A stretch of DNA of 51,306 nt from a bacterium (GTDB lineage: Bacteria; CLD3; SB21), in NCBI GenBank assembly GCA_019695335.1, contig JAIBAF010000003.1, positions 1 to 51,306 on the forward strand, given 5' to 3'. The notes beneath the pieces are model-generated. The model had not been told where the DNA came from. It saw only the letters and a list, made by a program, of their open reading frames with translations, and did no database searches. Positions 5,131-20,222 of this stretch are shown in pieces; positions within the stretch are counted from its first letter, which is position 1, and every line of letters starts with the position of its first letter. Both the position numbers and the translations under genes were made by a program.

Positions 5131-6279
5131 ATGAGCGAAAAAAATTTATCAAATAAACAGTATCACGTTTTGGTTGTTGATGACGAAGAACTGAATGTTC
5201 GGTTTCTTTCGACTTATCTTTCGCGTAAAGGTTATATCGTATCGACAGCGCAAACAGGGCAACAAGCCTTGGATCAAATCAAAGAACAGATGCCGGATGT
5301 TGTGTTGCTGGACGTGATGATGCCTGAAATGGACGGATTTGAAGTTTGCCGGCAGTTGCGTGAAGATTCCTTGACGCATATGCTACCCGTAATTATGGTT
5401 ACAGCATTGAGCAGTGTGGAAGATGAAGTGCGGGCGCTGGATTCAGGTGCAGATGATTTTTTACCAAAACCTATCAATAATCTCGAATTGCTGGCGCGTT
5501 TACGATCATTACTGCGAATCAAATCCCTCCATGATCAATTGAAAGACAGTAAAAATGAACTGGAAGAGAAAAATAAAAGGTTGGTGGAATTACAAGGATT
5601 GCGGGATTCATTAACTCAAATGATCGTACACGATCTTAAAAATCCATTAACTGGGATTATGGGCTGTGCGGAATTATTGATGATGACCAAAGACAGTTTA
5701 TCTGAAAAACAAATTGTGATTGTAAAAAAAATCGATGAGAGCGCCACGACCATTTTAAATATGATCTCGGATATGCTTGATATTAGCCGGATGGAGGAGA
5801 ACAAACTCGTACTGCATAAACAATTGTTCAGTATAACGGAAGTTTTGCAAGCCAATATCGAAGAGTTCAGTATCATGATGCAGAAAAATAATATTACCGC
5901 CGAAATCAGTTCGAACGGATCATTACCGCTTGTCAACGCCGATAAAGATTTAATCAATCGCGTTGTGGCCAATCTTCTTCATAATGCCGTCAAACACAGT
6001 CACCCTCAGGGAAGAATCATTCTCACTACTCACCATGATCATGATTCAAAAAAGGTTACAATTTCGATTGAAGATTTTGGTGAGGGCATACCGGCAGAAT
6101 ACCATGAAAAAATATTCGAAAAATTTTCGCAAGCCGACTTGAAAAAATACGGATTAAAAACCGATCGCGGTTTAGGTCTGGCATTTTGTAAATTGGCCGT
6201 TGAAGCACACGGTGGTCAAATTCGTGTCGAAAGCCGTCTGCATCAAGGAAGCAAATTTATTTTCAACATTCCCGTATAA
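5131..6279 (+). CDS. Response-regulator receiver plus histidine kinase hybrid
   Basis: A soluble two-component protein with the receiver at the N-terminus and the kinase at the C-terminus. The receiver (about 12-128) has the acidic pair D17/D18, phosphoacceptor D61 in LLDVMMPEMDGF, and the conserved Lys at K113 in LPKPINN. A coiled linker follows at 135-160. The HisKA motif is MIVHDLKNPLTG with H167, and the HATPase has NLLHNAVKH (N box), EDFGEGIP and GLGLAFCKLAVEAHGG. There are no membrane segments, so the input comes through phosphorylation of the receiver. It is monocistronic or leads the short unit that follows at 6365. Its receiver-linker junction (LELLARLRSLLRIKSLHDQL) closely resembles that of the 9957 kinase, which suggests paralogy. 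Confidence 0.92.
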   Translation: MSEKNLSNKQYHVLVVDDEELNVRFLSTYLSRKGYIVSTAQTGQQALDQIKEQMPDVVLLDVMMPEMDGFEVCRQLREDSLTHMLPVIMVTALSSVEDEVRALDSGADDFLPKPINNLELLARLRSLLRIKSLHDQLKDSKNELEEKNKRLVELQGLRDSLTQMIVHDLKNPLTGIMGCAELLMMTKDSLSEKQIVIVKKIDESATTILNMISDMLDISRMEENKLVLHKQLFSITEVLQANIEEFSIMMQKNNITAEISSNGSLPLVNADKDLINRVVANLLHNAVKHSHPQGRIILTTHHDHDSKKVTISIEDFGEGIPAEYHEKIFEKFSQADLKKYGLKTDRGLGLAFCKLAVEAHGGQIRVESRLHQGSKFIFNIPV

Positions 6280-7402: not shown

Positions 7403-8161
7403 ATGGACATTCGAATAGTTCTATATCAACAAAAGCTCATTGGGAAAATTTTACCTGAAGATTTTAATGCCATTAAGAACATGCATCCGGATTTCGTGTG
7501 TCTTCCGGAATATTTTTTTATCAAAGAGGGATTCGGACATGTGGAACAAGCCCGATTTGCCGAAGAAAATATCGAAGCTATTTCAAAATTATCAATTGAG
7601 CTGGACTCAGTTTTGATTGGGGGAAGCATTGTTGAGAAAATAGAAGATCGTTATTTTAATGTTTCATATATATTCGATCGTGGTCTGAAAATCGGACGAT
7701 ATTGCAAAGTGCATCTTTTTAAAGGTGAGTTGCATTCCAATCTTACGCCCGGCCATGATTTTAGAGCCTTTGATATCCAGGGCATACGCGTGGGACTGTT
7801 GATTTGTGCTGACGTATTATATCCGGAATCATTTGCAGCAATGAATAATTTTCAATGTGATATTGTTTTTGTACCGACGACATCACCGAAGAAAACCGAA
7901 ACGCTGGCGGATAAATTGGAACGGGATGAAATTATTTTCGTAAAAGGTGCCCAAACGGCTGAAGCTTATATAGCTAAATGTTGTGCTGTAGGAAGTATTT
8001 TTAATTCACCGATTCAAGCAAGGAGCTTGATCGCGTCACCGGAAACTATCATGCAACGAGCGGGTTTGGAAGAAGAGGAAAAACCGCTCATAATATCTCA
8101 AACGTTGTCCATTGACTGGATACGCAATTATAAAATGGGAGCAGGTAAAGAAACAGTATGA
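7403..8161 (+). CDS. Carbon-nitrogen hydrolase (nitrilase superfamily)
   Basis: An amidase-type enzyme that cleaves non-peptide C-N bonds. The Glu-Lys-Cys triad is visible: E36 in CLPEYFF, K102 in CKVHLF and C135 in LLICADVLYPE. I place the start at the ATG at 7403, giving 252 residues. The longer reading from 7340 would run through the comF end and add an unrelated N-terminal stretch. The protein is cytoplasmic. It overlaps the lipid kinase by four nt (8158-8161), so the two are translationally coupled. The substrate is unknown; it is a little shorter than biosynthetic nitrilases such as AguB. Confidence 0.83.
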   Translation: MDIRIVLYQQKLIGKILPEDFNAIKNMHPDFVCLPEYFFIKEGFGHVEQARFAEENIEAISKLSIELDSVLIGGSIVEKIEDRYFNVSYIFDRGLKIGRYCKVHLFKGELHSNLTPGHDFRAFDIQGIRVGLLICADVLYPESFAAMNNFQCDIVFVPTTSPKKTETLADKLERDEIIFVKGAQTAEAYIAKCCAVGSIFNSPIQARSLIASPETIMQRAGLEEEEKPLIISQTLSIDWIRNYKMGAGKETV

Positions 8162-9048
8162 AAATTGGTTTTGTGGTTAATCCTAAGGCGGGCGTTACCA
8201 AAAGTGCGTATCAGGAGATTCAGGAGTTCTCTAAAAAGTTAATTCGTGAAAAGCATCAGATAGACATAAAAGTAACGCAAGGACGTGGCGATGCAACGAT
8301 GATTGCCCGGGAATGGGCCAATCAAAAATTTGATCTTGTGGCCTCGGTGGGCGGTGACGGAACGGCCAATGAAACCGCGCAAGGACTGATTGATTCCGAT
8401 ACGGCGTTCACTATTATCCCGTATGGTTCGGGAAATGGTTTAGCTCGCGGGTTGTCGATTCCGCTCAACCGCGAATTAGCCGTTCATGCCATGGGTGCTT
8501 TTACAACCAAACTCATCGATGTAGGCGAGGTAATCGATCGTGATCAACAACGATTATTTTTTGGATTTTCAGGAACAGGTTATGACGCGTTTATTGGCAA
8601 ATTGTTTAATGAACGTCACGGACGACGCGGTTTAATGAGGTATGTATACTTGTCTTTGACCGCTTATAATAAATTTAAGCCTGTTTCAATGACTCTTAAA
8701 CTTAACGATCAGGAAATTGCCTGTGAGCCATTTGTTTTAGCAATTGCCAATACTAATGAATATGGCAACGGAGCCATCATTGCTCCCAGAGCGATTCCGG
8801 ACGACGGTTATTTTGAAGTATGTTTATTGCAGGAAATGACTTTTTTAAAAGGCGTTCTTCATGGTTGGAGGCTTTTTAATGGGTCAATTGCTGAATTGCC
8901 TGGAGCTTTAATGCTAAGGGCGCAGGAACTTGAAATTATTCCAAGTGAAAAAATTTATTACCATCTTGACGGCGAGGCACAAGAAACAAGCGGACCACTT
9001 AAATTTCGCATTTTGCCCAAACGAATTAGAGTAATGGTTCCGGCTTAA
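8158..9048 (+). CDS. Diacylglycerol/lipid kinase family protein (YegS/BmrU-like)
   Basis: Phosphorylates a lipid such as diacylglycerol, or a related substrate, using ATP. Diagnostic motifs are FVVNPKAG at the N-terminus, SVGGDGTANETAQGL (about residues 63-77, the nucleotide-binding GGDGT loop), IIPYGSGNGLARGL and DDGYFEVCLL. The length of 296 residues is standard for the YegS/DgkB family. It begins at the ATGA overlap with the nitrilase gene and ends the operon; a promoter for the next gene follows at 9058. Which lipid it uses cannot be decided. Confidence 0.9.
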   Translation: MKIGFVVNPKAGVTKSAYQEIQEFSKKLIREKHQIDIKVTQGRGDATMIAREWANQKFDLVASVGGDGTANETAQGLIDSDTAFTIIPYGSGNGLARGLSIPLNRELAVHAMGAFTTKLIDVGEVIDRDQQRLFFGFSGTGYDAFIGKLFNERHGRRGLMRYVYLSLTAYNKFKPVSMTLKLNDQEIACEPFVLAIANTNEYGNGAIIAPRAIPDDGYFEVCLLQEMTFLKGVLHGWRLFNGSIAELPGALMLRAQELEIIPSEKIYYHLDGEAQETSGPLKFRILPKRIRVMVPA

Positions 9049-9057
9049 GAATATAAC

Positions 9058-9086
9058 TTGACTCTAAGACCTTAAAAAACTAATTT
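9058..9086 (+). promoter_or_regulatory. Sigma-70 promoter for the Crp/Fnr gene
   Basis: TTGACT (9058-9063), a 17-nt spacer and TAATTT (9081-9086) stand 44 nt before the ATG at 9131. This is the only convincing hexamer pair in the 82-nt gap. Confidence 0.6.
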
Positions 9087-9130
9087 TTCACCGAGAGTGG
9101 AAACCTTAGCATTTAGTTTCTCTTCATACT

Positions 9131-9835
9131 ATGAGCGAGCAGAATAATAATTCGGTCAACAAAGTCGATTTCTTGAAAAAAGTTCCGATCTTTAGCGAAC
9201 TTGCACGTAAAGACTTAGAGCGCATTGCTCAGGTAGCTCATTCGCGAAAATATTATCGAGATAACGTCATACTCATCGAGGAAGAAACCGGTCAGACATT
9301 GTTCATTGTTATGAACGGCCAGGTCAAAATTTCGCGTGTGAGTGAGGACGGGCGAGAGGTTATTCTGGCCGTGATGGGTGAGGGCGATTTTTTTGGTGAA
9401 TTGTCTTTATTGGATGGCCAATCCCGTTCAGCCAATGTCACGGTTTTAAAAGATTCTGAAATGCTGCTTATTCATCGCGACGATTTTTTACGATTACTTA
9501 ACGAATTTCCACAAATCGCCATTAACCTGTTACGCGAATTAGCGGGCCGATTAAGAAAATCGGATGCACAGATCAAAAGCCTTTCGTTAAAAAACGCTAC
9601 CGGTAAAGTAACGGCCACGATTTTAAGACTCGCGGAAGACATCGGAGTGTTTTCGGATAAGCAATTGGAAATATCTAATCTTCCTACTCAGCAAGACTTG
9701 GCTAATATGGCCGGAACCAGTCGCGAAACTATTTCTCGTGTGATTCAAAAACTCATTAATCGTAAAGAAGTTTGTAAAGAAGGTAATAAACTGATCATTT
9801 TAGATTACGAACGCTTCAGAAAAGAATACTCGTAA
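9131..9835 (+). CDS. Crp/Fnr-family transcriptional regulator
   Basis: A DNA-binding regulator of 234 residues. The N-terminal cyclic-nucleotide-type beta-roll (about 13-130) has LFIVMNGQVKISR and GDFFGELSLLDGQSRSANV, the phosphate-binding cassette region. A long dimerisation helix follows, then a winged helix-turn-helix with LPTQQDLANMAGTSRETISR (about 184-203). No Cys cluster for an iron-sulfur centre is present, so it is not a canonical oxygen-sensing FNR. Cyclic AMP binding is possible since the cassette is well kept. It is a single-gene unit between its own promoter and the terminator at 9858-9892. Confidence 0.92.
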   Translation: MSEQNNNSVNKVDFLKKVPIFSELARKDLERIAQVAHSRKYYRDNVILIEEETGQTLFIVMNGQVKISRVSEDGREVILAVMGEGDFFGELSLLDGQSRSANVTVLKDSEMLLIHRDDFLRLLNEFPQIAINLLRELAGRLRKSDAQIKSLSLKNATGKVTATILRLAEDIGVFSDKQLEISNLPTQQDLANMAGTSRETISRVIQKLINRKEVCKEGNKLIILDYERFRKEYS

Positions 9836-9857
9836 TTTTATTCAATGAAAAATTTCC

Positions 9858-9892
9858 ATAAAAGCCAATCTCGATAAGGGATTGGCTTTTAT
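9858..9892 (+). terminator. Rho-independent terminator after the Crp/Fnr gene
   Basis: A perfect 13-bp inverted repeat (9858-9870 and 9880-9892) around a 9-nt loop, with AAAAGCC/GGCTTTT arms and a T-rich right flank. It separates the regulator from the hybrid kinase. Confidence 0.8.
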
Positions 9893-9956
9893 ATTTAATG
9901 GATTTTATGATCAGATTCGTATATATTGAGCCACAATTTTCAGAAATTGCAAATCC

Positions 9957-12059
9957 ATGAATTTTAGACCCAAAATTTTGGTATGTGAGCCCAATCCACA
10001 GACCATGGTTACGTTGACCACCATCCTCACGCACAACAATTATTCAATGGAAAAAGCCTATGATGGGCATGAGGTGTTGGATAAAATAAAAACACTTCAT
10101 TACGATCTGGCACTTGTCTCAGCAGACATGCCGGGAATTGATGGTTTTCAGGTGTGCAGGCTTTTGAAAGAAAGCGAACAAACCCGTCATATTCCGGCCA
10201 TGATCATAGCCTCGATGAGCGATCATGTGACACGCAATCGGGCTATCGAGTCCGGTGCGGAAGAGTTTATTACTACGCCGATTAATCGGGTCGAATTGCT
10301 GGCTCGCGTGGTTACCTTGCTTCGAATTAAAAATTTGCACGACACGCTTCAGCGTCAGATTCAGGAAAAAGAAGACGAACGGAAAAAATTGGCTCAAAAA
10401 ACCAATGAACTTCGGATTCTGTCTGAAATTGCCCGGGTCGTTATTTCCGTGAAAGACCGGCAAAGTGCAATGAATGAAATTGTCAATCATATTCGCAATG
10501 CATTTGCCGTCGAAGGCGTTCTGCTTGCCATAAGACATGAAACAGCATGGGTTGTTGAATCGCTTTCGGACAATCTTTCGCAATTGCATTCAGGACAGAT
10601 CATCGATAAAACCGTTACCATTTTCGATTATGTTTTGCAAAATGAAAAGCCTGTCATTGTCAACAACGTATTGACTGATGAGCGCTTTTCGCCTTTGCTT
10701 ACCCGTTTTACGGGTTTTATGATCAAAACCGCTTTATGTTCGCCGATTTTCGTTCGCGGCTCACTCATTGGCGTGTTGGTTATTTTTAATAAGAAAGATT
10801 TATCGTTATTTGAAACCGCTGATTTGACTTTACTGATGACCTTGTCGGGACAAATTGCGCTTGCCATCGAAAACATGCAGCTTTTTGACCGACTGTCCAG
10901 TTACAATAAAAATTTGCAGGAACAAATCAGCGTTTCAACACAAGCCTTGCTTGATTTGAAAAATTTTAATGAAAGTATTATTCAGAATATCAGTTCCGGG
11001 CTTATTACAGTGGACTTTTCAGGGAAAATTGTATTTGCCAATCGTGCAGGCGCAGGTATTCTTGGATACAACGAGATTGAATTGCTGGATAAGAATCTTA
11101 CCGATATTATTGGCTCCAAAGCGGCTCAGACTATTCTACAGCCGCATGAAGGCGATACGAGCGTTGGAGCGGAAATATTGATTCAAACAAAGCAGGCCAA
11201 AGATATCTACATCGGGTATACTACCAGCTTTCGTTATGATCCGGAAAAGAAAATGGTCGGATATATTCTTAGTTTCCGCGATATTACTCAAATAAAGGAA
11301 ATGCGTTCGACGATTTTGAAAATGGACCGGCTGGTTTCTTTAGGCATGCTGACGAGCGGTATTGCGCATGAAATTCGTAATCCGCTTGCGGGTATTAAAA
11401 CTATGGCGCAAGCTCTTGAAAAAGAACTCGGGCCCGAGGATACGCGGTTGGAGTATGTCAGCCGGATTATCAAACAGATCAATCGATTAAACGAGTTACT
11501 TAAAGCTTTTTTTACGTATGCCAAACCGGTACGCCCCGAAAAGCAATACTGCAATCTGGCTGACATTGTTAAAGAAGTTCGTGAACTAACCCGGCAACGT
11601 TGTGAAAATGAAAAGATCAACGTGGAAGAATTTTACGATCCATATATTTCAAAATTATTTGTAGATGAAAATCAGATCGAGCAGGTGTTGATCAATTTGA
11701 TCATCAACGCCATTGACGCGATGAAACACGGCGGTGTATTAACTGTTGAGGCACAAAATGCTAAACGTGCTTTGCCGCCGCGTTTTGCCGAAGCGCGTGA
11801 GATGATCGAAATAAAAATTTCCGATACCGGTATGGGAATTTCAAAAGAAAACCTGAAATCTATTTTTGATCCGTTTTTCACTACTAAACAAAACGGCGTC
11901 GGATTAGGATTATCTATTGTTTACCGAATTATACATGAACATGGCGGGGAAGTGCTGGTCGATAGTGTTGAAAAAAAAGGAACGACATTTACTATTTTAC
12001 TGCCGCTGCATGATCAATTGCATCATGTAGACATTGACAGGCGGATATCCATGACGTAA
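9957..12059 (+). CDS. Hybrid histidine kinase: degenerate receiver-GAF-PAS-HisKA-HATPase
   Basis: A soluble 700-residue sensor kinase. The N-terminal receiver fold (1-125) has lost its chemistry: the acidic pair is CEPNP, the phosphoacceptor site is Ser55 (LVSADMPGIDGF), and the Lys site is Thr107 (ITTPINR). A coiled coil (about 126-150) leads to a GAF domain (about 155-300), then a PAS domain starting near 340 (IIQNISSGLITVDFSG). HisKA has SGIAHEIRNPLAG with H471. HATPase boxes are NLIINAIDAMKHGG, SDTGMGIS and GVGLGLSIVYRIIHEHGGE. It is followed 18 nt later by a receiver regulator, its likely phosphotransfer partner. Inputs are probably a GAF/PAS small-molecule signal and a protein contact through the dead receiver. 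Confidence 0.92.
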   Translation: MNFRPKILVCEPNPQTMVTLTTILTHNNYSMEKAYDGHEVLDKIKTLHYDLALVSADMPGIDGFQVCRLLKESEQTRHIPAMIIASMSDHVTRNRAIESGAEEFITTPINRVELLARVVTLLRIKNLHDTLQRQIQEKEDERKKLAQKTNELRILSEIARVVISVKDRQSAMNEIVNHIRNAFAVEGVLLAIRHETAWVVESLSDNLSQLHSGQIIDKTVTIFDYVLQNEKPVIVNNVLTDERFSPLLTRFTGFMIKTALCSPIFVRGSLIGVLVIFNKKDLSLFETADLTLLMTLSGQIALAIENMQLFDRLSSYNKNLQEQISVSTQALLDLKNFNESIIQNISSGLITVDFSGKIVFANRAGAGILGYNEIELLDKNLTDIIGSKAAQTILQPHEGDTSVGAEILIQTKQAKDIYIGYTTSFRYDPEKKMVGYILSFRDITQIKEMRSTILKMDRLVSLGMLTSGIAHEIRNPLAGIKTMAQALEKELGPEDTRLEYVSRIIKQINRLNELLKAFFTYAKPVRPEKQYCNLADIVKEVRELTRQRCENEKINVEEFYDPYISKLFVDENQIEQVLINLIINAIDAMKHGGVLTVEAQNAKRALPPRFAEAREMIEIKISDTGMGISKENLKSIFDPFFTTKQNGVGLGLSIVYRIIHEHGGEVLVDSVEKKGTTFTILLPLHDQLHHVDIDRRISMT

Positions 12060-12077
12060 TTAAATTCCAGGATTACT

Positions 12078-13169
12078 ATGAAGAAAAAAGTTTTGGTAGT
12101 TGATGACGAAGAAGATTTGACGTGGAGTATTTCAAAAAATCTGGCTAAGGACAAAGACATTTACGAGATCGTTTGTGTCAATAACGGCCAGGAAGCGTTG
12201 AACGTTTTGTCGCAAGTTCCGGTCGACTTAGTTGTCAGCGATATTAAAATGCCTGGCATTACCGGGCTTGATCTGCTCATGAAGATCAAAGAAACATATT
12301 CGAGCACCAAAGTCATAATTATGACGGCATTTGGTTCAGCGGATGTACAAAAAGAAGCTACTGCTCGTGGTTCATTGTATTACATCGAAAAGCCTTTTGA
12401 AATTGAAGACTTGCGGACATTAATTAATAAAGCCATTGCAGATAAAAAAGGTTTCGATGGCAAAGTGACAGATTTTCAACTGTCAGATCTGATTCAAATG
12501 AACGTATTGGGAAGAATGATAGCTGCGCTCGTTGTAACAAAGGATAACGAACGTGGTACGATTTACTTTGCCGAAGGCAATATTGTCCACGCGGAATGCG
12601 GATCCATTGTTGGCGATGAAGCCTTTTATAAAATACTTTCATGGGAAGACGGTAAATTTGAATTTCGTAAAGGAGAACGGTCCGATCAGGAATCGATTAC
12701 GCGAGGCTGGCAGAGTTTGCTTTTGGAAGGAATGCGACGAAAAGACGAAGTCAATCCGGAATCGAAAACCCAAATGAAAGAAGTTTCACGGCAGGAAAGC
12801 TTAGAGAAAATCAAAGGCTGTTTGGGAGAATTTATCAAATTGAAAGGCATTGATTTGATATCTATCGTCGACGGTTCAGGCTTTTCGCGCGCCTCGTTGC
12901 AAAATGACAAAAAAGAAGACGTGTTGGATATTACAAGTTTACCGGGAATCATCACTCCTGGATTGGAATATCTGAACAAATGTAATGTCGATGTAAAAGG
13001 CAATGGCCTTCGTATTGTTACAATTGAATACAACAGTAAAACCCTAATTTTTTCACCTCTGCCATCGGGAGTTGAATGGTTGTTTATCGTGTGTGAGCCT
13101 GAAGTGAACTTAGGGGCTGTTCGCATGGCGATAAAAAAACAAGTGCCGATTCTCGCAGATATTTTATAG
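12078..13169 (+). CDS. Response regulator: receiver-DUF4388 (PATAN)-roadblock/LC7-like
   Basis: The receiver (1-120) is intact: acidic cluster DDEED at 9-13, phosphoacceptor D55 in VVSDIKMPG, and K105 in IEKPFEIE. The middle (about 124-215) fits DUF4388/PATAN: LSDLIQMNVLGRMIAALVV, GTIYFAEGNIVHAECG, GDEAFYKILSW and GKFEFR. The C-terminal third (about 245-360) looks like a roadblock/LC7 module, LISIVDGSGFSRASL to SGVEWLFIVCEP, the type used to control small GTPases. No DNA-binding domain is present, so the output is protein-protein. It is the probable target of the 9957 kinase just upstream. The roadblock call is less certain than the other two. Confidence 0.85.
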   Translation: MKKKVLVVDDEEDLTWSISKNLAKDKDIYEIVCVNNGQEALNVLSQVPVDLVVSDIKMPGITGLDLLMKIKETYSSTKVIIMTAFGSADVQKEATARGSLYYIEKPFEIEDLRTLINKAIADKKGFDGKVTDFQLSDLIQMNVLGRMIAALVVTKDNERGTIYFAEGNIVHAECGSIVGDEAFYKILSWEDGKFEFRKGERSDQESITRGWQSLLLEGMRRKDEVNPESKTQMKEVSRQESLEKIKGCLGEFIKLKGIDLISIVDGSGFSRASLQNDKKEDVLDITSLPGIITPGLEYLNKCNVDVKGNGLRIVTIEYNSKTLIFSPLPSGVEWLFIVCEPEVNLGAVRMAIKKQVPILADIL

Positions 13170-13177
13170 GATACTTG

Positions 13178-14023
13178 ATGGTTCTCGATCAAACTGATTT
13201 CGTCGATTTGCATATGCATTCCGTTCATTCGGACGGACAATTGCCGATTCGTTCTATTATTGATTTTGCGGCAGGCGCCGGATTACGGGCGATTGCCATT
13301 ACCGATCATGACACGGTAGAGGGCGTTGATGAAGCGATGCAGCTAGGCCGTGAAAAAGGACTTGAAATAATTTCGGGTGTTGAACTTAGTGCAACGATTG
13401 AAAACAGAGACATTCATATTTTGGGTTATTTGTTTAATCATTCGGATAAACATTTTTTGGATCGTATCAGTCATTTTAAAGATGAGCGTTATAAACGGGC
13501 TGAAAAGATGGTGCGCAAACTGAACAATGCCGGAGTTCATTTACAAATGGATTCTGTAATGGAATTTGCGGGCCAAGCGGCTGTGGGACGTCCGCACATT
13601 GCCGATGCAATGGTGAAACACGGATTTGCCGAATCCATCGAAGTTGCTTTTCGTGATTATATCGGCTACGGCGGGATTGCATACGAAGATAAATTTAATA
13701 TTACACCGGAAGAGGCCATTCGCATTATAACAGACGCTGGTGGTCTTTCATTTTTGGCGCATCCTTCACTTAATTTGAAGCAAAAATATTTATACCAAGT
13801 GATTCGATCAGGAATTCATGGAATCGAAACCATTCATCCGAATCATTCAGAAAGCTCGTCAAGTTATTATAAGCGAATTGCTATGCAGCATGCTTTGCTT
13901 GAATCCGGCGGATCGGATTGCCATGGCCGTAACGGTGAAATCAATATCGGGAAATATCGAGTGCCTTATAGGGTAATTGAAGCAATGAAAGAAAAGTTGA
14001 ACAAGAAAACGGGGGGTCGATGA
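13178..14023 (+). CDS. PHP-domain phosphoesterase (YciV/TrpH/RNase AM-like)
   Basis: A metal-dependent phosphoesterase. The PHP active-site set is complete: HMHSVHSDG near the N-terminus, AITDHDTVEG, GVELSA, DIHILGYLF, FLAHPSL and a terminal GGSDCHG. Characterised members degrade 3',5'-bisphosphonucleotides such as pAp or act as 5'-3' exoribonucleases. The ATG at 13178 is preferred over the TTG at 13175 because AGGA at 13168-13171 is then better spaced. It gives 281 residues. Its last four bases overlap the start of the RelA-like gene, so the pair is translationally coupled. That coupling suggests a substrate linked to the neighbour's product, which is inference. Confidence 0.88.
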   Translation: MVLDQTDFVDLHMHSVHSDGQLPIRSIIDFAAGAGLRAIAITDHDTVEGVDEAMQLGREKGLEIISGVELSATIENRDIHILGYLFNHSDKHFLDRISHFKDERYKRAEKMVRKLNNAGVHLQMDSVMEFAGQAAVGRPHIADAMVKHGFAESIEVAFRDYIGYGGIAYEDKFNITPEEAIRIITDAGGLSFLAHPSLNLKQKYLYQVIRSGIHGIETIHPNHSESSSSYYKRIAMQHALLESGGSDCHGRNGEINIGKYRVPYRVIEAMKEKLNKKTGGR

Positions 14024-15126
14024 GTCATACGGCCACGATACCTCAATTTCATAATGCTTATACCCATCTATCCGACAGAGAAGCGCATTACATCAGCCAG
14101 ATGACGATCAGCGATCTGGAGGCTATTCGATTGGTTTTGGAGGGTAATTCGGTCATTGACTGGTTCCGACTTGATTTTTCTTCAGACGAACAAATCGAAT
14201 TATTTCTTAGAGTCAACGGTTATGACGCTAATCAAACCCATGATCTTAAGCGCATCGACCGGCTTCGTCGGGAAGCTATTGCGTATCTGGATTTAAATTA
14301 CCCGCACCGGCTGCCGCCGGAATTACGCGAAAACGAAATTCCAATTCATAAATTATTTTATTGGGCATCGGGATCTTACAAACGCTCGAAAATTCAAATG
14401 TTTGCTTGCATGGTTTTAAAAATCATGCATACGCTCAATCATATCGATGCGCGGGAACTTATGCATAGTTGTGAATTTCGCGCATCGGAGTTGTACACGG
14501 CCGTCGAACGTAAAGTTGAAAATGCGATCGTGACTATGCAAAACGAAGGCTTCCATATTGTTGATTTTTACGGAAGCCATAAAGATAAATTCAGTATGAT
14601 AACAAAGCTTATTTCCAAGAAAGAAAATCATGCGGCGGCCATTTATGATAGAATACGATTTCGTATCATTACTTTAACGGTGTCGGACATTTTACCTATG
14701 CTATACTATCTTGGGCGAACAATTTGCCCATTTAATTATGTAATTCCGGGGAGTTCACATAACAGCCTGATTCCTTATCCTGACTTGCTTTCCCATTTTT
14801 CGCGATTTGAGCATTATGCTTCATATTTACGAAAGACGACGTCATTATCAGGTGCTGCGAAAAATAATTCCAACCAATTTTCAGATCCAGGCTACAAAGT
14901 CATTAATATTGTTAGCGACGTGCCGATAAGGGTCGATGAGTTGTTGTATACGCCGGATTTTGCTGAACTCGGAAGGATTATTTTCGTGCCGGTCGAGTTT
15001 CAGATTATGGATCAGGAGACGTATCACAGTAACGAAGCAGGCAACAGCAACCACAAAAAATATAAACAACGACAATCCGAAGCCGTTAATATCCGCTTGG
15101 GAATCCATCTTACTGACCACTTCTAA
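14020..15126 (+). CDS. Divergent RelA/SpoT-like nucleotidyltransferase protein (TIGR04552-like)
   Basis: Not a standard annotated enzyme. The C-terminal half follows the order of a RelA/SpoT synthetase domain: YGSHKDKFSMITKLISKK (about 194-211, basic ATP-binding stretch), IYDRIRFRII (208-217, cf. DLIGIRVI), a degenerate GYQSLH site as GYKVINIVSD (301-310), and VEFQIMDQETYHSNEAGNS (325-343) followed by HKKYK (345-349, cf. EIQIRT...AEyG.AAHwkYK). The acidic residue of E-x-Q-I is kept. The first 150 residues have no HD hydrolase motif. I recall an unnamed family, TIGR04552, with this length and look, but could not check. Predicted to transfer pyrophosphate or act on nucleotides; activity is uncertain because the GYQSLH site is altered. 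Coupled to the PHP gene. Confidence 0.62.
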   Translation: MSHTATIPQFHNAYTHLSDREAHYISQMTISDLEAIRLVLEGNSVIDWFRLDFSSDEQIELFLRVNGYDANQTHDLKRIDRLRREAIAYLDLNYPHRLPPELRENEIPIHKLFYWASGSYKRSKIQMFACMVLKIMHTLNHIDARELMHSCEFRASELYTAVERKVENAIVTMQNEGFHIVDFYGSHKDKFSMITKLISKKENHAAAIYDRIRFRIITLTVSDILPMLYYLGRTICPFNYVIPGSSHNSLIPYPDLLSHFSRFEHYASYLRKTTSLSGAAKNNSNQFSDPGYKVINIVSDVPIRVDELLYTPDFAELGRIIFVPVEFQIMDQETYHSNEAGNSNHKKYKQRQSEAVNIRLGIHLTDHF

Positions 15127-15138
15127 CGCTATTTCTCC

Positions 15139-15852
15139 ATGCGCATTTCTGCCATTGTTCCTGTCCTGAATGAAGAATCTGTTATCGATTCGTTTCTGCA
15201 ATGGCATATGAATTTAAACGAAATAGACGAATGGATTGTAGTGGATGGGGGAAGTAACGATCGAACACTTGAACGAGTTGATGCATTTCAAAAACAATGT
15301 GCAAAGATCAAATTAATATCAGGCGAGCAGTTACGAGGTCGTGCAAAACAAATGAATGCAGGAGCTTTATCAGCCAATGGCGAGGTTTTATTGTTTTTAC
15401 ATGTTGACTGCAAATTGGATCGACTTGCTCCCGCAGTTTTGAAAAATGCAATGGGTCACGAGCATTTAATCGGCGGGGGGTTTTATAAAAAATATGAAAA
15501 TGAAACCGTATTATTGAAAATTTATCGCTCAATCATGAATGTTCTTCGAACTCAGTGGCTGAGAAATTTAGTCGGGACAAATGGGATTTTTGTCAGGAAA
15601 AATATTTTTGAAAAAATCGGCGGTTATCCGGATACCCCGATCTTGGAAGACATGCTTTTATGTGATCGTATGAAATCAGCTGGAAAATTGGCCATGATCA
15701 AACCCTATATAATTGTTTCATCACGTAGATATTTTAAAGATGGCGTTCTTCGGAGAATTGTAATGGCCTTAAAAATTTTGTTCTTGTTCCGAATTATGAA
15801 AATATCACCCGATCAATTAAAATCGTATTATCTGAAAACAGTTAAGGAGTAG
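15139..15852 (+). CDS. Glycosyltransferase family 2 (TIGR04283-like)
   Basis: An inverting GT-A enzyme of 237 residues. It starts with ISAIVPVLNEE, then DEWIVVDGGSNDRT, RGRAKQMNAGALSANGEVLL and LFLHVDCKLD (the DxD metal site region). This matches the rSAM/selenodomain-associated transferase 2 family (TIGR04283), including GGGFY, VGTNGIFVRK and PILEDMLLCDRMKSAG. Family members in some cyanobacteria are linked to arsenosugar synthesis. The partner TIGR04282 gene that often lies beside it is not in this window. It is 12 nt after the RelA-like gene and 3 nt before the HAD gene, inside one plus-strand unit. Confidence 0.87.
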   Translation: MRISAIVPVLNEESVIDSFLQWHMNLNEIDEWIVVDGGSNDRTLERVDAFQKQCAKIKLISGEQLRGRAKQMNAGALSANGEVLLFLHVDCKLDRLAPAVLKNAMGHEHLIGGGFYKKYENETVLLKIYRSIMNVLRTQWLRNLVGTNGIFVRKNIFEKIGGYPDTPILEDMLLCDRMKSAGKLAMIKPYIIVSSRRYFKDGVLRRIVMALKILFLFRIMKISPDQLKSYYLKTVKE

Positions 15853-15855
15853 TGT

Positions 15856-16509
15856 TTGTCAGTATTGCATAACATTGATACAATTTTATTTGATTTTGAC
15901 GGCGTAGTCATTCAAAGTATTGAAGATCATTACAAATCGTGGAATCAAGCCTTTGCTCGTTTTGGGGTAACGGTTCAATGGAACGATTTTGCCGTGTTAG
16001 AAGGGCAAAGTTTATATACCATTGCATCCCAATTATGCAAGCTTTATAACATTTCTCAAGCCGAACATCGGGCCATTGGCGTCGAAAAAAATGCCCTATA
16101 TTTGACCACAGCAACCATTCGTTTTTATGACGATATTTTTCCGGCGTTGGAATATTTACGCCTACAAAAAAAAAGCATTGGTTTAGTTACCGGAGCACAT
16201 CGCGATCGCTTTGATCAGACGGTCGGCATGGATTTTAAAAATAAATTTGACGTCATCATTACAGCCGATGATGTTACACGTACGAAACCTGACCCGGAGC
16301 CTTATTTACTTGCTGCTACAAAACTAAACAAACTTCCGGCTAGTTGTTTGGTAATCGAAAATGCTCCACTTGGAATAGAGGCCGCTAAAAATGCAGGTAT
16401 GCTATGTTTTGCGTTGACGACAACTTTGCCGGCAGAATTTTTGAGTAAAGCAGACTGGATTGGAAAAAGCGTAACCGATGTCATTCAATTGATAAAAAAA
16501 TGTCAGTGA
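15856..16509 (+). CDS. HAD-superfamily hydrolase, beta-phosphoglucomutase-like subfamily
   Basis: A phosphatase or phosphomutase of 217 residues. HAD motif I is LFDFDGVVIQS with nucleophile Asp, motif II is GLVTGAHRD, and the later motifs include RTKPDPEPYLLAATKL and VIENAPLGIEAAKNAGM. The cap domain lies between motifs I and II and is of the small helical C1 type. The start is a TTG at 15856: the AAGGAG at 15844-15849 is spaced 6 nt from it and the gene directly abuts the GT2 stop. It overlaps the methyltransferase by 10 nt. The substrate is unknown; a sugar phosphate is the usual case. Confidence 0.88.
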   Translation: MSVLHNIDTILFDFDGVVIQSIEDHYKSWNQAFARFGVTVQWNDFAVLEGQSLYTIASQLCKLYNISQAEHRAIGVEKNALYLTTATIRFYDDIFPALEYLRLQKKSIGLVTGAHRDRFDQTVGMDFKNKFDVIITADDVTRTKPDPEPYLLAATKLNKLPASCLVIENAPLGIEAAKNAGMLCFALTTTLPAEFLSKADWIGKSVTDVIQLIKKCQ

Positions 16510-17240
16510 CCAACGTAAATCCATACTCAAAATTGGCAGCCATTTATGACGGTATGATGGAACAGGTGGATTACCATCTTTGGGCGCATTATATTGATTC
16601 ACTGCTCAAGTCATTCGGACATGACGTTAAAGAAGTCTGCGAATTGGCTTGCGGAACGGGTTCGCTGGCAATTGAACTTTCTAAATATGGGTATCAATTA
16701 ACTTGTTCCGATCAATCGGCCGATATGATCGATTGTGCCAGCGCTAAAGTTTCAAAAAAAAATAGAAACATTTCGTTTTTTATCAGCGATATGTGTAATT
16801 TTAAATCTGATCGGAATTTTGACGCTGTTATTTGCATTTATGACAGCATTAATTATTTAATGGACGAAATTAGTTTGAAGTCTTTTTTTATGAATGCCCA
16901 TCGGTTATTGAAAAAAAATGCAATAATGATTTTTGATGCCTGTACGGAAATCAATTCACTTGAAAATTTTGATAAGCGGTATGAAAACGACCGTCATCAC
17001 CACTATGTGCGCCGCAGCCGGTATTTAAAAAATGACCGCATCCAGGAAAATGAAATTGAAATTACAAGAGGCAATAAAAAATACATAGAAGTCCATCGAC
17101 AGAAAATTTATCCACTGGAAGTTTTCAAACGTATTCTTCAGACGTTGCCGTTCGAAATATTGGCTCAGTATTCCAATTTCTCGTACGATCCCGGTACAGA
17201 ATCTTCTGAACGCGTTCATTTTGTATTGAAAGCGAAATAG
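16500..17240 (+). CDS. Class I SAM-dependent methyltransferase
   Basis: A 246-residue Rossmann-fold methyltransferase. SAM motif I is VCELACGTGSLAIELS (about 42-57), followed by LTCSDQSADMIDCA (motif II acidic residue) and NFDAVICIYDSINYLMD (motif IV). The C-terminal part has a beta-rich segment YIEVHRQKIYPLEVFKRIL seen in small-molecule methyltransferases. It begins 10 nt inside the HAD gene and ends 2 nt before the nucleoside phosphorylase. There is no good ribosome-binding site, so it probably relies on coupling. The methyl acceptor is not predictable. Confidence 0.88.
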   Translation: MSVTNVNPYSKLAAIYDGMMEQVDYHLWAHYIDSLLKSFGHDVKEVCELACGTGSLAIELSKYGYQLTCSDQSADMIDCASAKVSKKNRNISFFISDMCNFKSDRNFDAVICIYDSINYLMDEISLKSFFMNAHRLLKKNAIMIFDACTEINSLENFDKRYENDRHHHYVRRSRYLKNDRIQENEIEITRGNKKYIEVHRQKIYPLEVFKRILQTLPFEILAQYSNFSYDPGTESSERVHFVLKAK

Positions 17241-17242
17241 GC

Positions 17243-18568
17243 ATGATAGGTTATGAAATTATAGCCAAAAAACGCGATCGTCATGAATTAAATCGTGAAG
17301 AAATTTACGGGTTGATTCAAGCTTACTCTTCCGGAAAAATTCCTGATTATCAGATGTCGGCATTTTTAATGGCAACTTACTTGAATGGAATGAGTTTTCG
17401 CGAAATTACTGACTTGACATTGGCTATGCGTGATTCCGGCATCGTACTGGATTTGTCAGATATTTCAGGAGTCAAAATTGATAAACATAGTACTGGCGGC
17501 GTAGGGGATAAAATTTCAATCATACTTGCACCGCTTGCAGCCTCGATGGGTGTAACGGTTCCGATGATCAGCGGCCGGGGCCTGGGGCATACGGGCGGGA
17601 CTTTAGACAAGCTGCAATCTATTCCGGGTTTTGATATTTTTATTTCTACGGATCGGTTTCGTTCAATTTTGAAAGCCATTGGCGTCAGTATGATCGGACA
17701 GACAGAAGAAATTGCGCCGGCTGATCGCAAGCTTTATGCATTGCGTGACGTGACAGGAACCGTTGAATCGATACCGCTGATCTCGGCCAGTATCATGAGT
17801 AAAAAGTTGGCTGAAGGCATTGACGCGTTGATACTGGATGTTAAGGTCGGCAACGGCGCCTTTATGAAAACACTCGATCGCGCAGTTGATTTGGCTCAAC
17901 ATTTAGTGATGATTGGAGAAGGTGCCGGTAAACATACGATCGCATTACTTACAAATATGGATGAACCATTAGGCTTTGCAATCGGTAATTGGCTTGAAGT
18001 TGTAGAATCTATTGATGTTTTAAATGGAAAAGGTCCATCTGATATTCGCGAATTATCGGTTATTCTTGCGGCTAATATGCTGACTATTGCCGATCGGAAA
18101 ATTTCATACGACACTGCGTATAACCTTGCATCTGAAAATCTGAACAACGGGAAAGCTTTTACAAAATTGATAGAATTGGTTCAACACCATAACGGGGATT
18201 CCAGTTTGATTCAAAATCCCGAAAAATATCCAAAAGCAATTTTCAAGAAAGATGTATTCGCTCAGAATGATGGATTTGTAGTATCAATGAATACACATGC
18301 AATCGGAATGACGGGAATTTTGATCGGAGCAGGCCGACTGACGAAGGAAGATTCTATTGACTATACAGCCGGAATAATGCTTCACAAAAAAGTTGGCGAT
18401 CCGGTAAAGAAAAATGAACTGCTCGCGACGATTTTTACTGAGCGCGAAGCCAGCCTTGAAGAAGCTTCGCATAAATTGCTTGACGCGTACCGAATTGATT
18501 TTAATGCACCGGACAAACAACCGCTTATTCTTGGAGTTTTAGATAAAAACGGATTTCGATCAATATAA
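17243..18568 (+). CDS. Pyrimidine-nucleoside (thymidine) phosphorylase
   Basis: Splits thymidine, deoxyuridine or uridine with phosphate to give the base and (deoxy)ribose-1-phosphate, part of nucleoside salvage. It has the DeoA/Pdp signature KHSTGGVGDKISIILAPLAA and SGRGLGHTGGTLDKLQSIPG, plus LRDVTGTVESIPLISASIMS and LDVKVGNGAFMK. The length of 441 residues is that of the family. The substrate range (DeoA-type thymidine-specific versus broader Pdp type) is not decided, so no symbol is given. It is the last gene of the unit that starts at the hybrid kinase; a new promoter follows at 18589. Confidence 0.93.
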   Translation: MIGYEIIAKKRDRHELNREEIYGLIQAYSSGKIPDYQMSAFLMATYLNGMSFREITDLTLAMRDSGIVLDLSDISGVKIDKHSTGGVGDKISIILAPLAASMGVTVPMISGRGLGHTGGTLDKLQSIPGFDIFISTDRFRSILKAIGVSMIGQTEEIAPADRKLYALRDVTGTVESIPLISASIMSKKLAEGIDALILDVKVGNGAFMKTLDRAVDLAQHLVMIGEGAGKHTIALLTNMDEPLGFAIGNWLEVVESIDVLNGKGPSDIRELSVILAANMLTIADRKISYDTAYNLASENLNNGKAFTKLIELVQHHNGDSSLIQNPEKYPKAIFKKDVFAQNDGFVVSMNTHAIGMTGILIGAGRLTKEDSIDYTAGIMLHKKVGDPVKKNELLATIFTEREASLEEASHKLLDAYRIDFNAPDKQPLILGVLDKNGFRSI

Positions 18569-18588
18569 AGCATACGAATTTAATACTT

Positions 18589-18615
18589 TGAAACAATCGT
18601 TTCATACTTAACGTA
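18589..18615 (+). promoter_or_regulatory. ECF-type (sigma-W-like) promoter before the ECF sigma gene
   Basis: TGAAAC (18589-18594), 17 nt, then CGTA (18612-18615). This matches the published Bacillus subtilis ECF sigma-W consensus pattern TGAAAC-N16/17-CGTA. The -35 box also forms a small inverted repeat with GTTTCA at 18599-18604. It ends 18 nt before the ATG at 18634, so the mRNA leader would be very short. It would make the ECF factor autoregulated. Confidence 0.5.
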
Positions 18616-18633
18616 ACACTACCGGCTTGATTT

Positions 18634-19371
18634 ATGGCAAAGAGAAAGGCGAAAGTATCTAAGACTTCCGCGGGTAAGAAAAAGAAAACCAAACGTTCTT
18701 TGACAACCGTTTCTAAACCGCAACCGGTTATTCGTACTCCTGAAATGGATGCTGCGGAACAACAGCGTTTGCAGGCAGAAAAAAGAGAAAAACAAAAGAA
18801 AGAAGATTTTGAGTTGATTGGCCGTGCTATTGCCGGTAATCAACAGGCTTATAAAGATTTAATGCAACGTTATCAGTCGCAAATTTTCAGTCTGATGTAT
18901 CGAATGGTTCATTCGACAACCGAAGCTGAAGATTTGGTTCAGGAAGCATTTATGAAAGCCTTTGGTTCATTGCCGAACTTTAATTATGAATATGCTTTCA
19001 GCACGTGGCTGTATAAAATTGCAACGAATAACTGCATCGATCATTTAAGGAAGAAAAAATTGCAGACGTTTTCAATTGATACACCGGTTACTTACAAGGA
19101 TAGTACATACAATATCGAAATTCCGGATTTGACGTATTATCCCGAGAAAGAAATGATGCGCAACGAACGGAATTCTATTATTAAAGTTGCGATTGATGCA
19201 TTACCTGAGAAGTATAAGACAGTGATCTATTTGCGGCATACGGACGAGTTGTCCTACGAAGAAATTTCGGAATTATTAAAAATTCCTATCGGAACGGTCA
19301 AGGCGCGTATTTTCAGGGCGCGAGAAATGCTAAATAAATTCCTGAAAGGTAAAGTTGAAAAAGGTTCGTAA
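18634..19371 (+). CDS. ECF-family RNA polymerase sigma factor with Lys-rich N-terminal extension
   Basis: A 245-residue extracytoplasmic-function sigma factor. Region 2 has AGNQQAYKDLMQRYQSQIFS, TEAEDLVQEAFMKAF and AFSTWLYKIATNNCIDHLRK (about 68-143). Region 4 has ALPEKYKTVIYLRHTDELSY and EEISELLKIPIGTVKARIFR (about 190-230). Before region 2 there is an unusual extension of about 60 residues: 11 of the first 21 residues are Lys or Arg, followed by a charged helical stretch. No anti-sigma factor is adjacent; the next genes are a toast-rack protein and a TPR protein. The extension could bind nucleic acid or act in regulation, but that is a guess. Confidence 0.92.
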   Translation: MAKRKAKVSKTSAGKKKKTKRSLTTVSKPQPVIRTPEMDAAEQQRLQAEKREKQKKEDFELIGRAIAGNQQAYKDLMQRYQSQIFSLMYRMVHSTTEAEDLVQEAFMKAFGSLPNFNYEYAFSTWLYKIATNNCIDHLRKKKLQTFSIDTPVTYKDSTYNIEIPDLTYYPEKEMMRNERNSIIKVAIDALPEKYKTVIYLRHTDELSYEEISELLKIPIGTVKARIFRAREMLNKFLKGKVEKGS

Positions 19372-19373
19372 GT

Positions 19374-20222
19374 ATGAAGTTGGCTAATATGAAGGTATGG
19401 GCTACGATATTTTTCTCCGGATCGGTGATCACTCTTGTATCGCAATCGAATATCGAAAGCCGTAACCGTGAAGACGAAAAAGAATTGAAAGTGAAAGTCG
19501 AATACGCTGCGGGCGATTTCTCCGTACGCAAAGTTCAGGAAGATAAGTTGTATATCATTCAATCCAAATCAGAAAAAACTTCAATTGCTCCAAAAGCATC
19601 TTATTATAAAAGCGGTAGTACCGGATTCTTAAATTTAGAAATGGATCAAAATACTTCCGTCGACATGTTTGATTTTGGTAAACAAAACTGGTCTCTTGAA
19701 TTTTCGGACAAAATCCCAATGTCTTATAATTTTGAATTAGGCGCATGCAACGGTGAGTTTGATTTTACGGGTCTCCGCGTGCAAGATCTTACATTGTCGA
19801 TGGGCGCCAGTAAAGCTAACGTTTATTTTCGTGCTCCCAATAAAGATCAGATCTATCTTATGAAAATAGAAGCCGGCGCTTCTAAAATGATGATGAGCGG
19901 GCTATGTAACGCAAATTTCGAAAGGATGGAATTTGAAGGCGGCGTGGGTTCATATATCCTCGATTTTTCAGGCGAATTAAAAAGGGATGCAAGAGCTAAT
20001 ATTACCGTCGGACTTGGAAAAGTCACTATTAAAGTTTCCCGTAACACTAATGTAAAGCTTCGTACAGATGAATCGTTTTTTTCGACTTGTAATATCAGCG
20101 ATACTGATTTTGAGAAAAAACAAGATGGATTGTATGTATCCCGTAATTTTAATTCCGAAATACCGGTTTTGGACTTACGTGTAGAAGCGGGTCTCGGCAA
20201 AGTAAATGTCGTGATGGAGTAA
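19374..20222 (+). CDS. Toast-rack/LiaF-like beta-repeat secreted protein
   Basis: A 282-residue protein with an N-terminal signal or anchor (MKLANMKVWATIFFSGSVIT). The rest resembles the toast-rack fold of LiaF-type and DUF4097-like adhesin proteins: short beta repeats such as LEFSDKIPMSYNFELGACNG, LTLSMGASKANVYF, MKIEAGASKMMMSG and LRVEAGLGKVNVVME, with many GA/GxG turns. It lies 2 nt after the ECF sigma gene, so they share a transcript. In Bacillus, LiaF holds down an envelope-stress two-component system. Here it may sense or buffer envelope damage for the sigma factor; no transmembrane domain able to bind sigma is visible beyond the N-terminal segment. Confidence 0.65.
   Translation: MKLANMKVWATIFFSGSVITLVSQSNIESRNREDEKELKVKVEYAAGDFSVRKVQEDKLYIIQSKSEKTSIAPKASYYKSGSTGFLNLEMDQNTSVDMFDFGKQNWSLEFSDKIPMSYNFELGACNGEFDFTGLRVQDLTLSMGASKANVYFRAPNKDQIYLMKIEAGASKMMMSGLCNANFERMEFEGGVGSYILDFSGELKRDARANITVGLGKVTIKVSRNTNVKLRTDESFFSTCNISDTDFEKKQDGLYVSRNFNSEIPVLDLRVEAGLGKVNVVME

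Follow-up and report, generated by a model that had tools for sequence, protein, structure and literature searches.

The active site of enzymes with the RSH fold has been described for RelP in complex with AMPCPP (PMC5794853). In RelP, Lys80, Ser84 and Lys88 bind phosphate, Asp107 and Glu174 are Mg ligands, Arg78 and Arg112 stack on the adenine, His190 contacts the ribose, and Tyr151 stacks on the guanine. Two protein families that will be compared with these enzymes here, TIGR04552 and TIGR04562, are described in NCBIfam only as families without a function. In the open-licence literature, no paper was found that treats either of them as an alarmone synthetase; TIGR04552 was found only as a mutated gene (PMC9888234), and TIGR04562 was not found. 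Bdellovibrio carries a TIGR04552 member, and when Bdellovibrio sp. NC01 was evolved on a single prey, a one-base deletion (frameshift) in this gene exceeded 75% in one line out of six (PMC9888234). The gene is therefore dispensable there. Its loss may be favoured, and hitchhiking is possible as well.

The window analysed here is the whole stretch of 51,306 nucleotides (positions 1 to 51,306 of contig JAIBAF010000003.1). On its forward strand, a gene for a PHP-domain phosphoesterase (13178..14023; 281 aa from the ATG at 13178, with an alternative TTG start at 13175) is followed by a gene for a protein of 368 aa (14020..15126). The start of the second gene lies within the stop of the first, as the initial annotation had it: the two share an ATGA overlap (14020..14023), composed of the ATG at 14020-14022 and the TGA at 14021-14023. 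That annotation saw in the pair a divergent RelA/SpoT-like nucleotidyltransferase coupled to a matching phosphatase. Below, the two parts of this idea are considered separately.

A Divergent RSH-Fold Protein

The 368-aa protein has a divergent form of the RSH fold and belongs to a family that is catalogued without a function. It matches TIGR04552 at 7.8e-89 (298 bits, cut-off 125) and TIGR04562 at 8.9e-85 (285 bits, cut-off 140), in both cases over residues 31-360. The relation to RSH enzymes is barely visible from the single sequence, for which PF04607 (RelA_SpoT) gives a weak match (9.8e-5, 23 bits, cut-off 27) and a PDB search gives none. It was raised far above chance by a family alignment of 59 relatives. 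With this alignment, hmmsearch of the PDB found YwaC/RelP as the best match (1e-4), then RelSeq (3e-4), and hhalign against seven bifunctional RSH proteins gave E 3e-7 and 93%, with the motifs in register from motif 1 through the C-terminal H..YK. PF04607 matches 35 of the 59 family members at E <= 0.01 (best 1.4e-8), and its cut-off is reached by distant members in genomes G367 and G378.

Structure prediction agrees with the profile searches. The AlphaFold (AF2) model of the protein has a pLDDT of 87.2 and a pTM of 0.86, and all 50 matches listed by Foldseek are RSH/SAS enzymes (prob 0.95-1.00, E from 4e-5). By target length, no TM-score among the matches listed exceeds 0.56, a modest value, and the rmsd is large, which is probably caused by a long insert and an extra domain. 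Taken together, the PDB profile search, hhalign, the AF2 model and Foldseek delimit a RelA/SpoT-type synthetase domain at residues 179-360 (14554..15099). Neither an HD domain nor a TGS/ACT regulatory region was found in NCBIfam and Pfam profile searches. The initial reading of a divergent RelA/SpoT-like nucleotidyltransferase that lacks the HD domain is thus borne out: profile-profile comparison and structure prediction both returned the RSH synthetase fold and not an unrelated one.

The extra domain comprises residues 1-150 (14020..14469). It is all-helical and family-specific, as judged from conservation and the AlphaFold model, with a mean column identity of 46% in a set of 16 relatives. 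The conserved residues C130, K134, H137 and H141 are spaced along a single long helix (124-150). Modelled alone, the domain reached a pLDDT of 71, and with this moderate model as the query, no match to PDB folds was found below E 1.6. The N-terminus of about 150 residues, noted at the outset as unfamiliar, indeed matched no known fold.

Conserved and Altered Parts of the Active Site

Residue roles were taken from the RelP-AMPCPP structure (PMC5794853) and the register from the RSH alignment. The RelP correspondences are a sequence alignment, not superposed coordinates, with RelP numbers carried over through motif spacing. Motif 1 of the window protein reads G-S-H-K188-x3-S192-x3-K196-L-I-S-K200-K (14572..14622) where RSH enzymes have GRPKH..S...K, and it aligns K188, S192 and K196 with Lys80, Ser84 and Lys88 of RelP. 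D210, the predicted Mg ligand, and R215 (14647..14664) align with Asp107 and Arg112. The G-loop, N285-Q-F-S288-D-P-G-Y292-K-V-I-N-I (14872..14910), provides Y292 as the counterpart of Tyr151. The final stretch, E326-F-Q328-I-M-D331 ... G341 ... H345-K-K-Y348-K349 (14995..15066), places E326 at Glu174 and H345 at His190. These positions are well conserved among the 59 sequences: K196 is present in all of them, E326 in 58, K188, D210, Q328 and Y348 in 57 each, S192 in 56, and R215 and H345 in 55 each. Position 292 is Tyr in 53 sequences and Phe in the other six. The acidic Mg-ligand pair together with K..S..K (D210, E326, K188, S192, K196) is kept in at least 56 of 59.

Other parts of the site have changed. 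The Arg of GRPK, which corresponds to RelP Arg78 and RelSeq Arg241, is Ser in the window protein. None of the 51 core members has Arg at this position (they have Ser, Gly, Asn or Cys), and of the eight distant rows just two do. The adenine-stacking arginine pair is consequently incomplete, with the Arg112 counterpart (R215) kept and the Arg78 counterpart gone. RelP Arg91 has no clear one-to-one counterpart; K200, which is conserved in 54 of 59 sequences, lies nearby. The family G-loop reads FSGxxYRVxNF where RSH has PNGYQSLHT, and it is preceded by a long insert. After the G-loop Tyr, SLH of RSH has become V-x-N in core members. The altered GYQSLH that had been pointed out is read here as PGYKVIN, with the Tyr retained. 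In addition, QIR of RSH is replaced by QIx followed by a near-invariant Asp, and the RSH His312 position is mostly Asn in the family. The simplest reading, in which catalysis is read from the conserved residues, would be an intact phosphate and metal chemistry combined with a changed donor-base site and a changed G-loop.

One GTDB family (f59) contains two members (L078, 5995-7035, and L087, 5932-6972) in which K188 and S192 are gone, as are parts of both the G-loop and the end motif. By their sequences, these are probably catalytically dead versions.

Distribution and Inheritance

All seven genomes of the window's GTDB family carry TIGR04552, and the two sister-family genomes examined do not. 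In the phylum to which genome G036 belongs, probably Myxococcota, 114 of 146 genomes have a match above the cut-off, and 108 of the 126 good genomes have one at E <= 0.001. In a broad sample of 386 genomes, 20 have a match above the TIGR04562 cut-off. A genome almost always has just one copy. A tree built from 60 sequences groups the members of each GTDB family represented more than once into a single clade, the 32 changes being the minimum possible. The gene is chromosomal, single-copy, vertically inherited and near-universal in one phylum (probably Myxococcota).

No plasmid match to the TIGR04552 protein was found, viral contigs searched with the window protein contained no relative, and PADLOC and PHROGs gave no match. 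An apparent phage homologue in Microcystis phage MaAM05 (2e-14) was rejected, as its neighbours are secD/secF, glyS, mtgA, gatD and acpS. This record (L138; MW495066.1, 115543-132607) has the appearance of a bacterial contig that was submitted under a phage name. It carries a TIGR04552 relative and possibly comes from a bacterium associated with Microcystis.

The carriers tested also have a long Rel-type gene. A strong PF04607 match in a long frame (about 720-810 codons) occurs in all 16 of them, the window's genome and 15 others, and the long gene of the window's genome was confirmed as a full RelA/SpoT protein (locus L013). Three carriers have further RelA_SpoT-domain genes (G061:C112:19052-19453, G239:C26:5232-5591 and G398:C97:3134-3505, in frames of 365, 233 and 518 codons, respectively), possibly other small alarmone synthetases.

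The PHP Protein and Its Neighbourhood

The upstream gene encodes a complete PHP phosphoesterase, as first described, with a PF02811 match at 4e-14 and metal-ligand motifs recognised by eye (DLHMHS, ITDHD, GVE, GRPH, LAHP, GGSDCHG). The nearest solved structures in the PDB are 3e0f (3e-34), 9etk, 7ug9 and 2yb1. By sequence, the protein is placed in the superfamily of 3',5'-nucleoside bisphosphate phosphatase and RNase RNM. It scores 169 bits against the phosphatase model NF041577 (cut-off 400) and 163 bits against the RNase RNM model (cut-off 375), and because both scores are below the equivalog cut-offs, its substrate is left unassigned. An action on 3',5'-bisphosphonucleotides, as suggested for PHP enzymes of this type, is therefore possible but is not assigned.

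The two genes are part of a collinear block (8158-20222) whose first half contains a lipid kinase, a Crp-like regulator, a sensor kinase, a response regulator with DUF4388 (12078..13169), PHP and TIGR04552. The second half continues with a TIGR04283-type glycosyltransferase (15139..15852), which begins 12 nt downstream of the 368-aa gene, a HAD hydrolase (15856-16509) that overlaps a SAM methyltransferase (16500-17240), a pyrimidine-nucleoside (thymidine) phosphorylase (17243..18568), an ECF sigma factor and a LiaF-like protein. The neighbours with individual coordinates are all on the forward strand. The glycosyltransferase is a borderline match to TIGR04283, annotated as an arsenosugar biosynthesis glycosyltransferase (182.6 bits, cut-off 182).

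PHP lies directly upstream of TIGR04552 in seven of seven genomes of the window's family. Gene order in this family is the same throughout the block (up to twelve genes, lipid kinase through LiaF-like gene) on every contig that reaches far enough, and the PHP pair is therefore no more informative than any other adjacent pair. The window, G001 and G003 have the ATGA overlap, the spacing is about 34-44 nt in G004 and G005, and the start of the second gene is ambiguous in G002; listed by locus, the overlap occurs at L001 and L112 and is absent at L002 and L113. An apparent PHP-TIGR04552 fusion in G006 (a 673-aa frame at locus L003) was rejected, since its two parts are joined by a run of N (about 5893-5991), a scaffold gap; automatic annotation could report this false frame as a fusion. 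The sister family (f2) was considered as a test of co-gain and proved uninformative, as PHP, TIGR04552 and any clear orthologue of the neighbouring regulator are all absent from it.

Beyond the window's family, 53 loci from 31 families were inspected over up to 6 kb on either side of TIGR04552, and no PHP relative was found at any of them. Two TIGR04552 genomes, G419 and G245, contain no relative of the window PHP anywhere at E <= 0.001. In probable Myxococcota loci, the recurring neighbours are TPR-like, zinc-ribbon and Ffh-like proteins (named by eye), common to 5-7 families, the Ffh-like one usually on the opposite strand. The neighbour clustering, run in high-GC genomes with a codon-usage filter against antisense frames, found no neighbour common to more than seven GTDB families as a possible antitoxin. 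The PHP gene is probably a neighbour in a family-specific operon and no required partner, its link to TIGR04552 being an accident of one lineage's operon. The coupling proposed initially is thus lost in relatives outside the family, and even inside it some genomes lack the overlap.

Proposed Function and Alternative Explanations

We lean, with some reservation, towards the 368-aa protein being a divergent RSH-fold pyrophosphokinase that acts as alarmone synthetases do. An NTP and Mg2+ would be bound through K188, S192, K196, D210, R215, E326 and H345, the acceptor base would be stacked on Y292, and pyrophosphate would be transferred to a 3'-OH. The donor, the acceptor or the regulation may differ from those of Rel and RelP/Q; this is suggested because the first adenine-stacking Arg is lost, the G-loop is changed, and a long insert and a helical N-terminal domain are present. 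Several points weigh against this explanation, namely, the lost Arg78 counterpart, the His312 position that is mostly Asn, the altered QIR, the modest TM-scores, the frameshift sweep in Bdellovibrio and the degenerate f59 pair. A wider proposal is more speculative and, in our estimate, distinctly less probable. TIGR04552/TIGR04562 might be an unrecognised ancient housekeeping RSH branch, a pyrophosphokinase with its own donor and acceptor specificity and a sensor domain. It would work alongside Rel throughout one phylum (probably Myxococcota), and also in predators such as Bdellovibrio, and would make an as yet undescribed nucleotide signal or RNA modification.

The same altered residues could be read as those of a catalytically inactive RSH-like protein, whose fold binds a nucleotide or alarmone while the N-terminal domain relays the signal. 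The family-wide loss of the GRPK arginine and of His312, the degenerate members in f59 and the long Rel-type gene in all carriers tested all fit such a protein, but both Mg ligands and the Lys/Ser/Lys set that binds phosphate rank with the best-conserved positions of the family, which would be unusual for a dead enzyme, and we regard this explanation as unlikely. Still less probable is a related fold with another chemistry, for example, transfer of a nucleotidyl (NMP) group to a protein, an RNA or a small molecule. The altered donor-base site and G-loop, the long insert and the unique N-terminal domain would be compatible with it, but the phosphate- and metal-binding set closely resembles that of pyrophosphokinases.

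The explanations that involve PHP depend on its adjacency. In a private nucleotide-signal pair of the window's own family, the RSH-like protein would make a 3'-phosphorylated nucleotide and PHP would degrade it; the constant adjacency in that family, the overlap in three of its loci (window, G001, G003) and the pNp phosphatases among the PHP relatives speak for such a pair. Yet the neighbours on both sides are equally well conserved, the adjacency disappears in the 31 other families, two TIGR04552 genomes have no PHP of the window type, and PHP itself is under the pNp-phosphatase cut-off, which makes this as improbable as the change of chemistry. A toxSAS-type toxin with PHP as its enzymatic antitoxin, the other form in which the pairing was first proposed, would account for adjacent, overlapping genes and an RSH fold without an HD domain. 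Against it stand single-copy vertical inheritance, the missing PHP partner at all 53 other loci, the lack of PADLOC and PHROGs matches and of a plasmid or credible phage copy, and the lack of a possible antitoxin among neighbours common to more than seven GTDB families; it appears very improbable. Both pairing explanations are disfavoured, toxSAS strongly, because the PHP link is confined to the collinear block of one family.

If the preferred pyrophosphokinase is active, it would add a second RSH-type enzyme to the core set of a phylum (probably Myxococcota) in which development depends on starvation signalling. Surveys that use the PF04607 cut-off would miss most TIGR04552/TIGR04562 members, and the conserved residues define the mutants to examine. 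The locus also illustrates how little an overlap of operon genes in a single genome says about whether they form a functional pair, since the adjacency is gone outside one bacterial family.

Comparison with Known Systems

Within NCBIfam, the window protein is a full-length member above both curated cut-offs, and its near-equal scores to TIGR04552 and TIGR04562 place it between the two described subfamilies. The PHP protein has the fold and metal motifs of 3',5'-nucleoside bisphosphate phosphatase and RNase RNM, with 3e0f, 2yb1 and 7ug9 as relatives, but remains under both equivalog cut-offs. In comparison with toxSAS pairs (FaRel2, CapRel), the window protein shares an RSH fold without HD, whereas the TIGR04552 gene has no cross-family antitoxin partner, is inherited vertically and is near-universal in one phylum; the patchy, mobile distribution of toxSAS was not seen in the genome census, the plasmid and phage searches or the tree. 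The window protein shares the order of its synthetase motifs with the long RSH enzymes (Rel/RelA/SpoT; hhalign E 3e-7), but it has no counterpart of their HD hydrolase domain and TGS/ZFD/ACT regulatory region, and it coexists with a long RSH in the same genome (L013). With RelP/RelQ (SAS2/SAS1; PDB 6fgx, 6ewz, 5ded), the window protein shares the synthetase fold and counterparts of Lys80, Ser84, Lys88, Asp107, Arg112, Tyr151, Glu174 and His190. It differs from them in the absence of Arg78, in a G-loop with VxN in place of SLH, in the long insert before this loop and in the additional N-terminal domain of about 150 aa.
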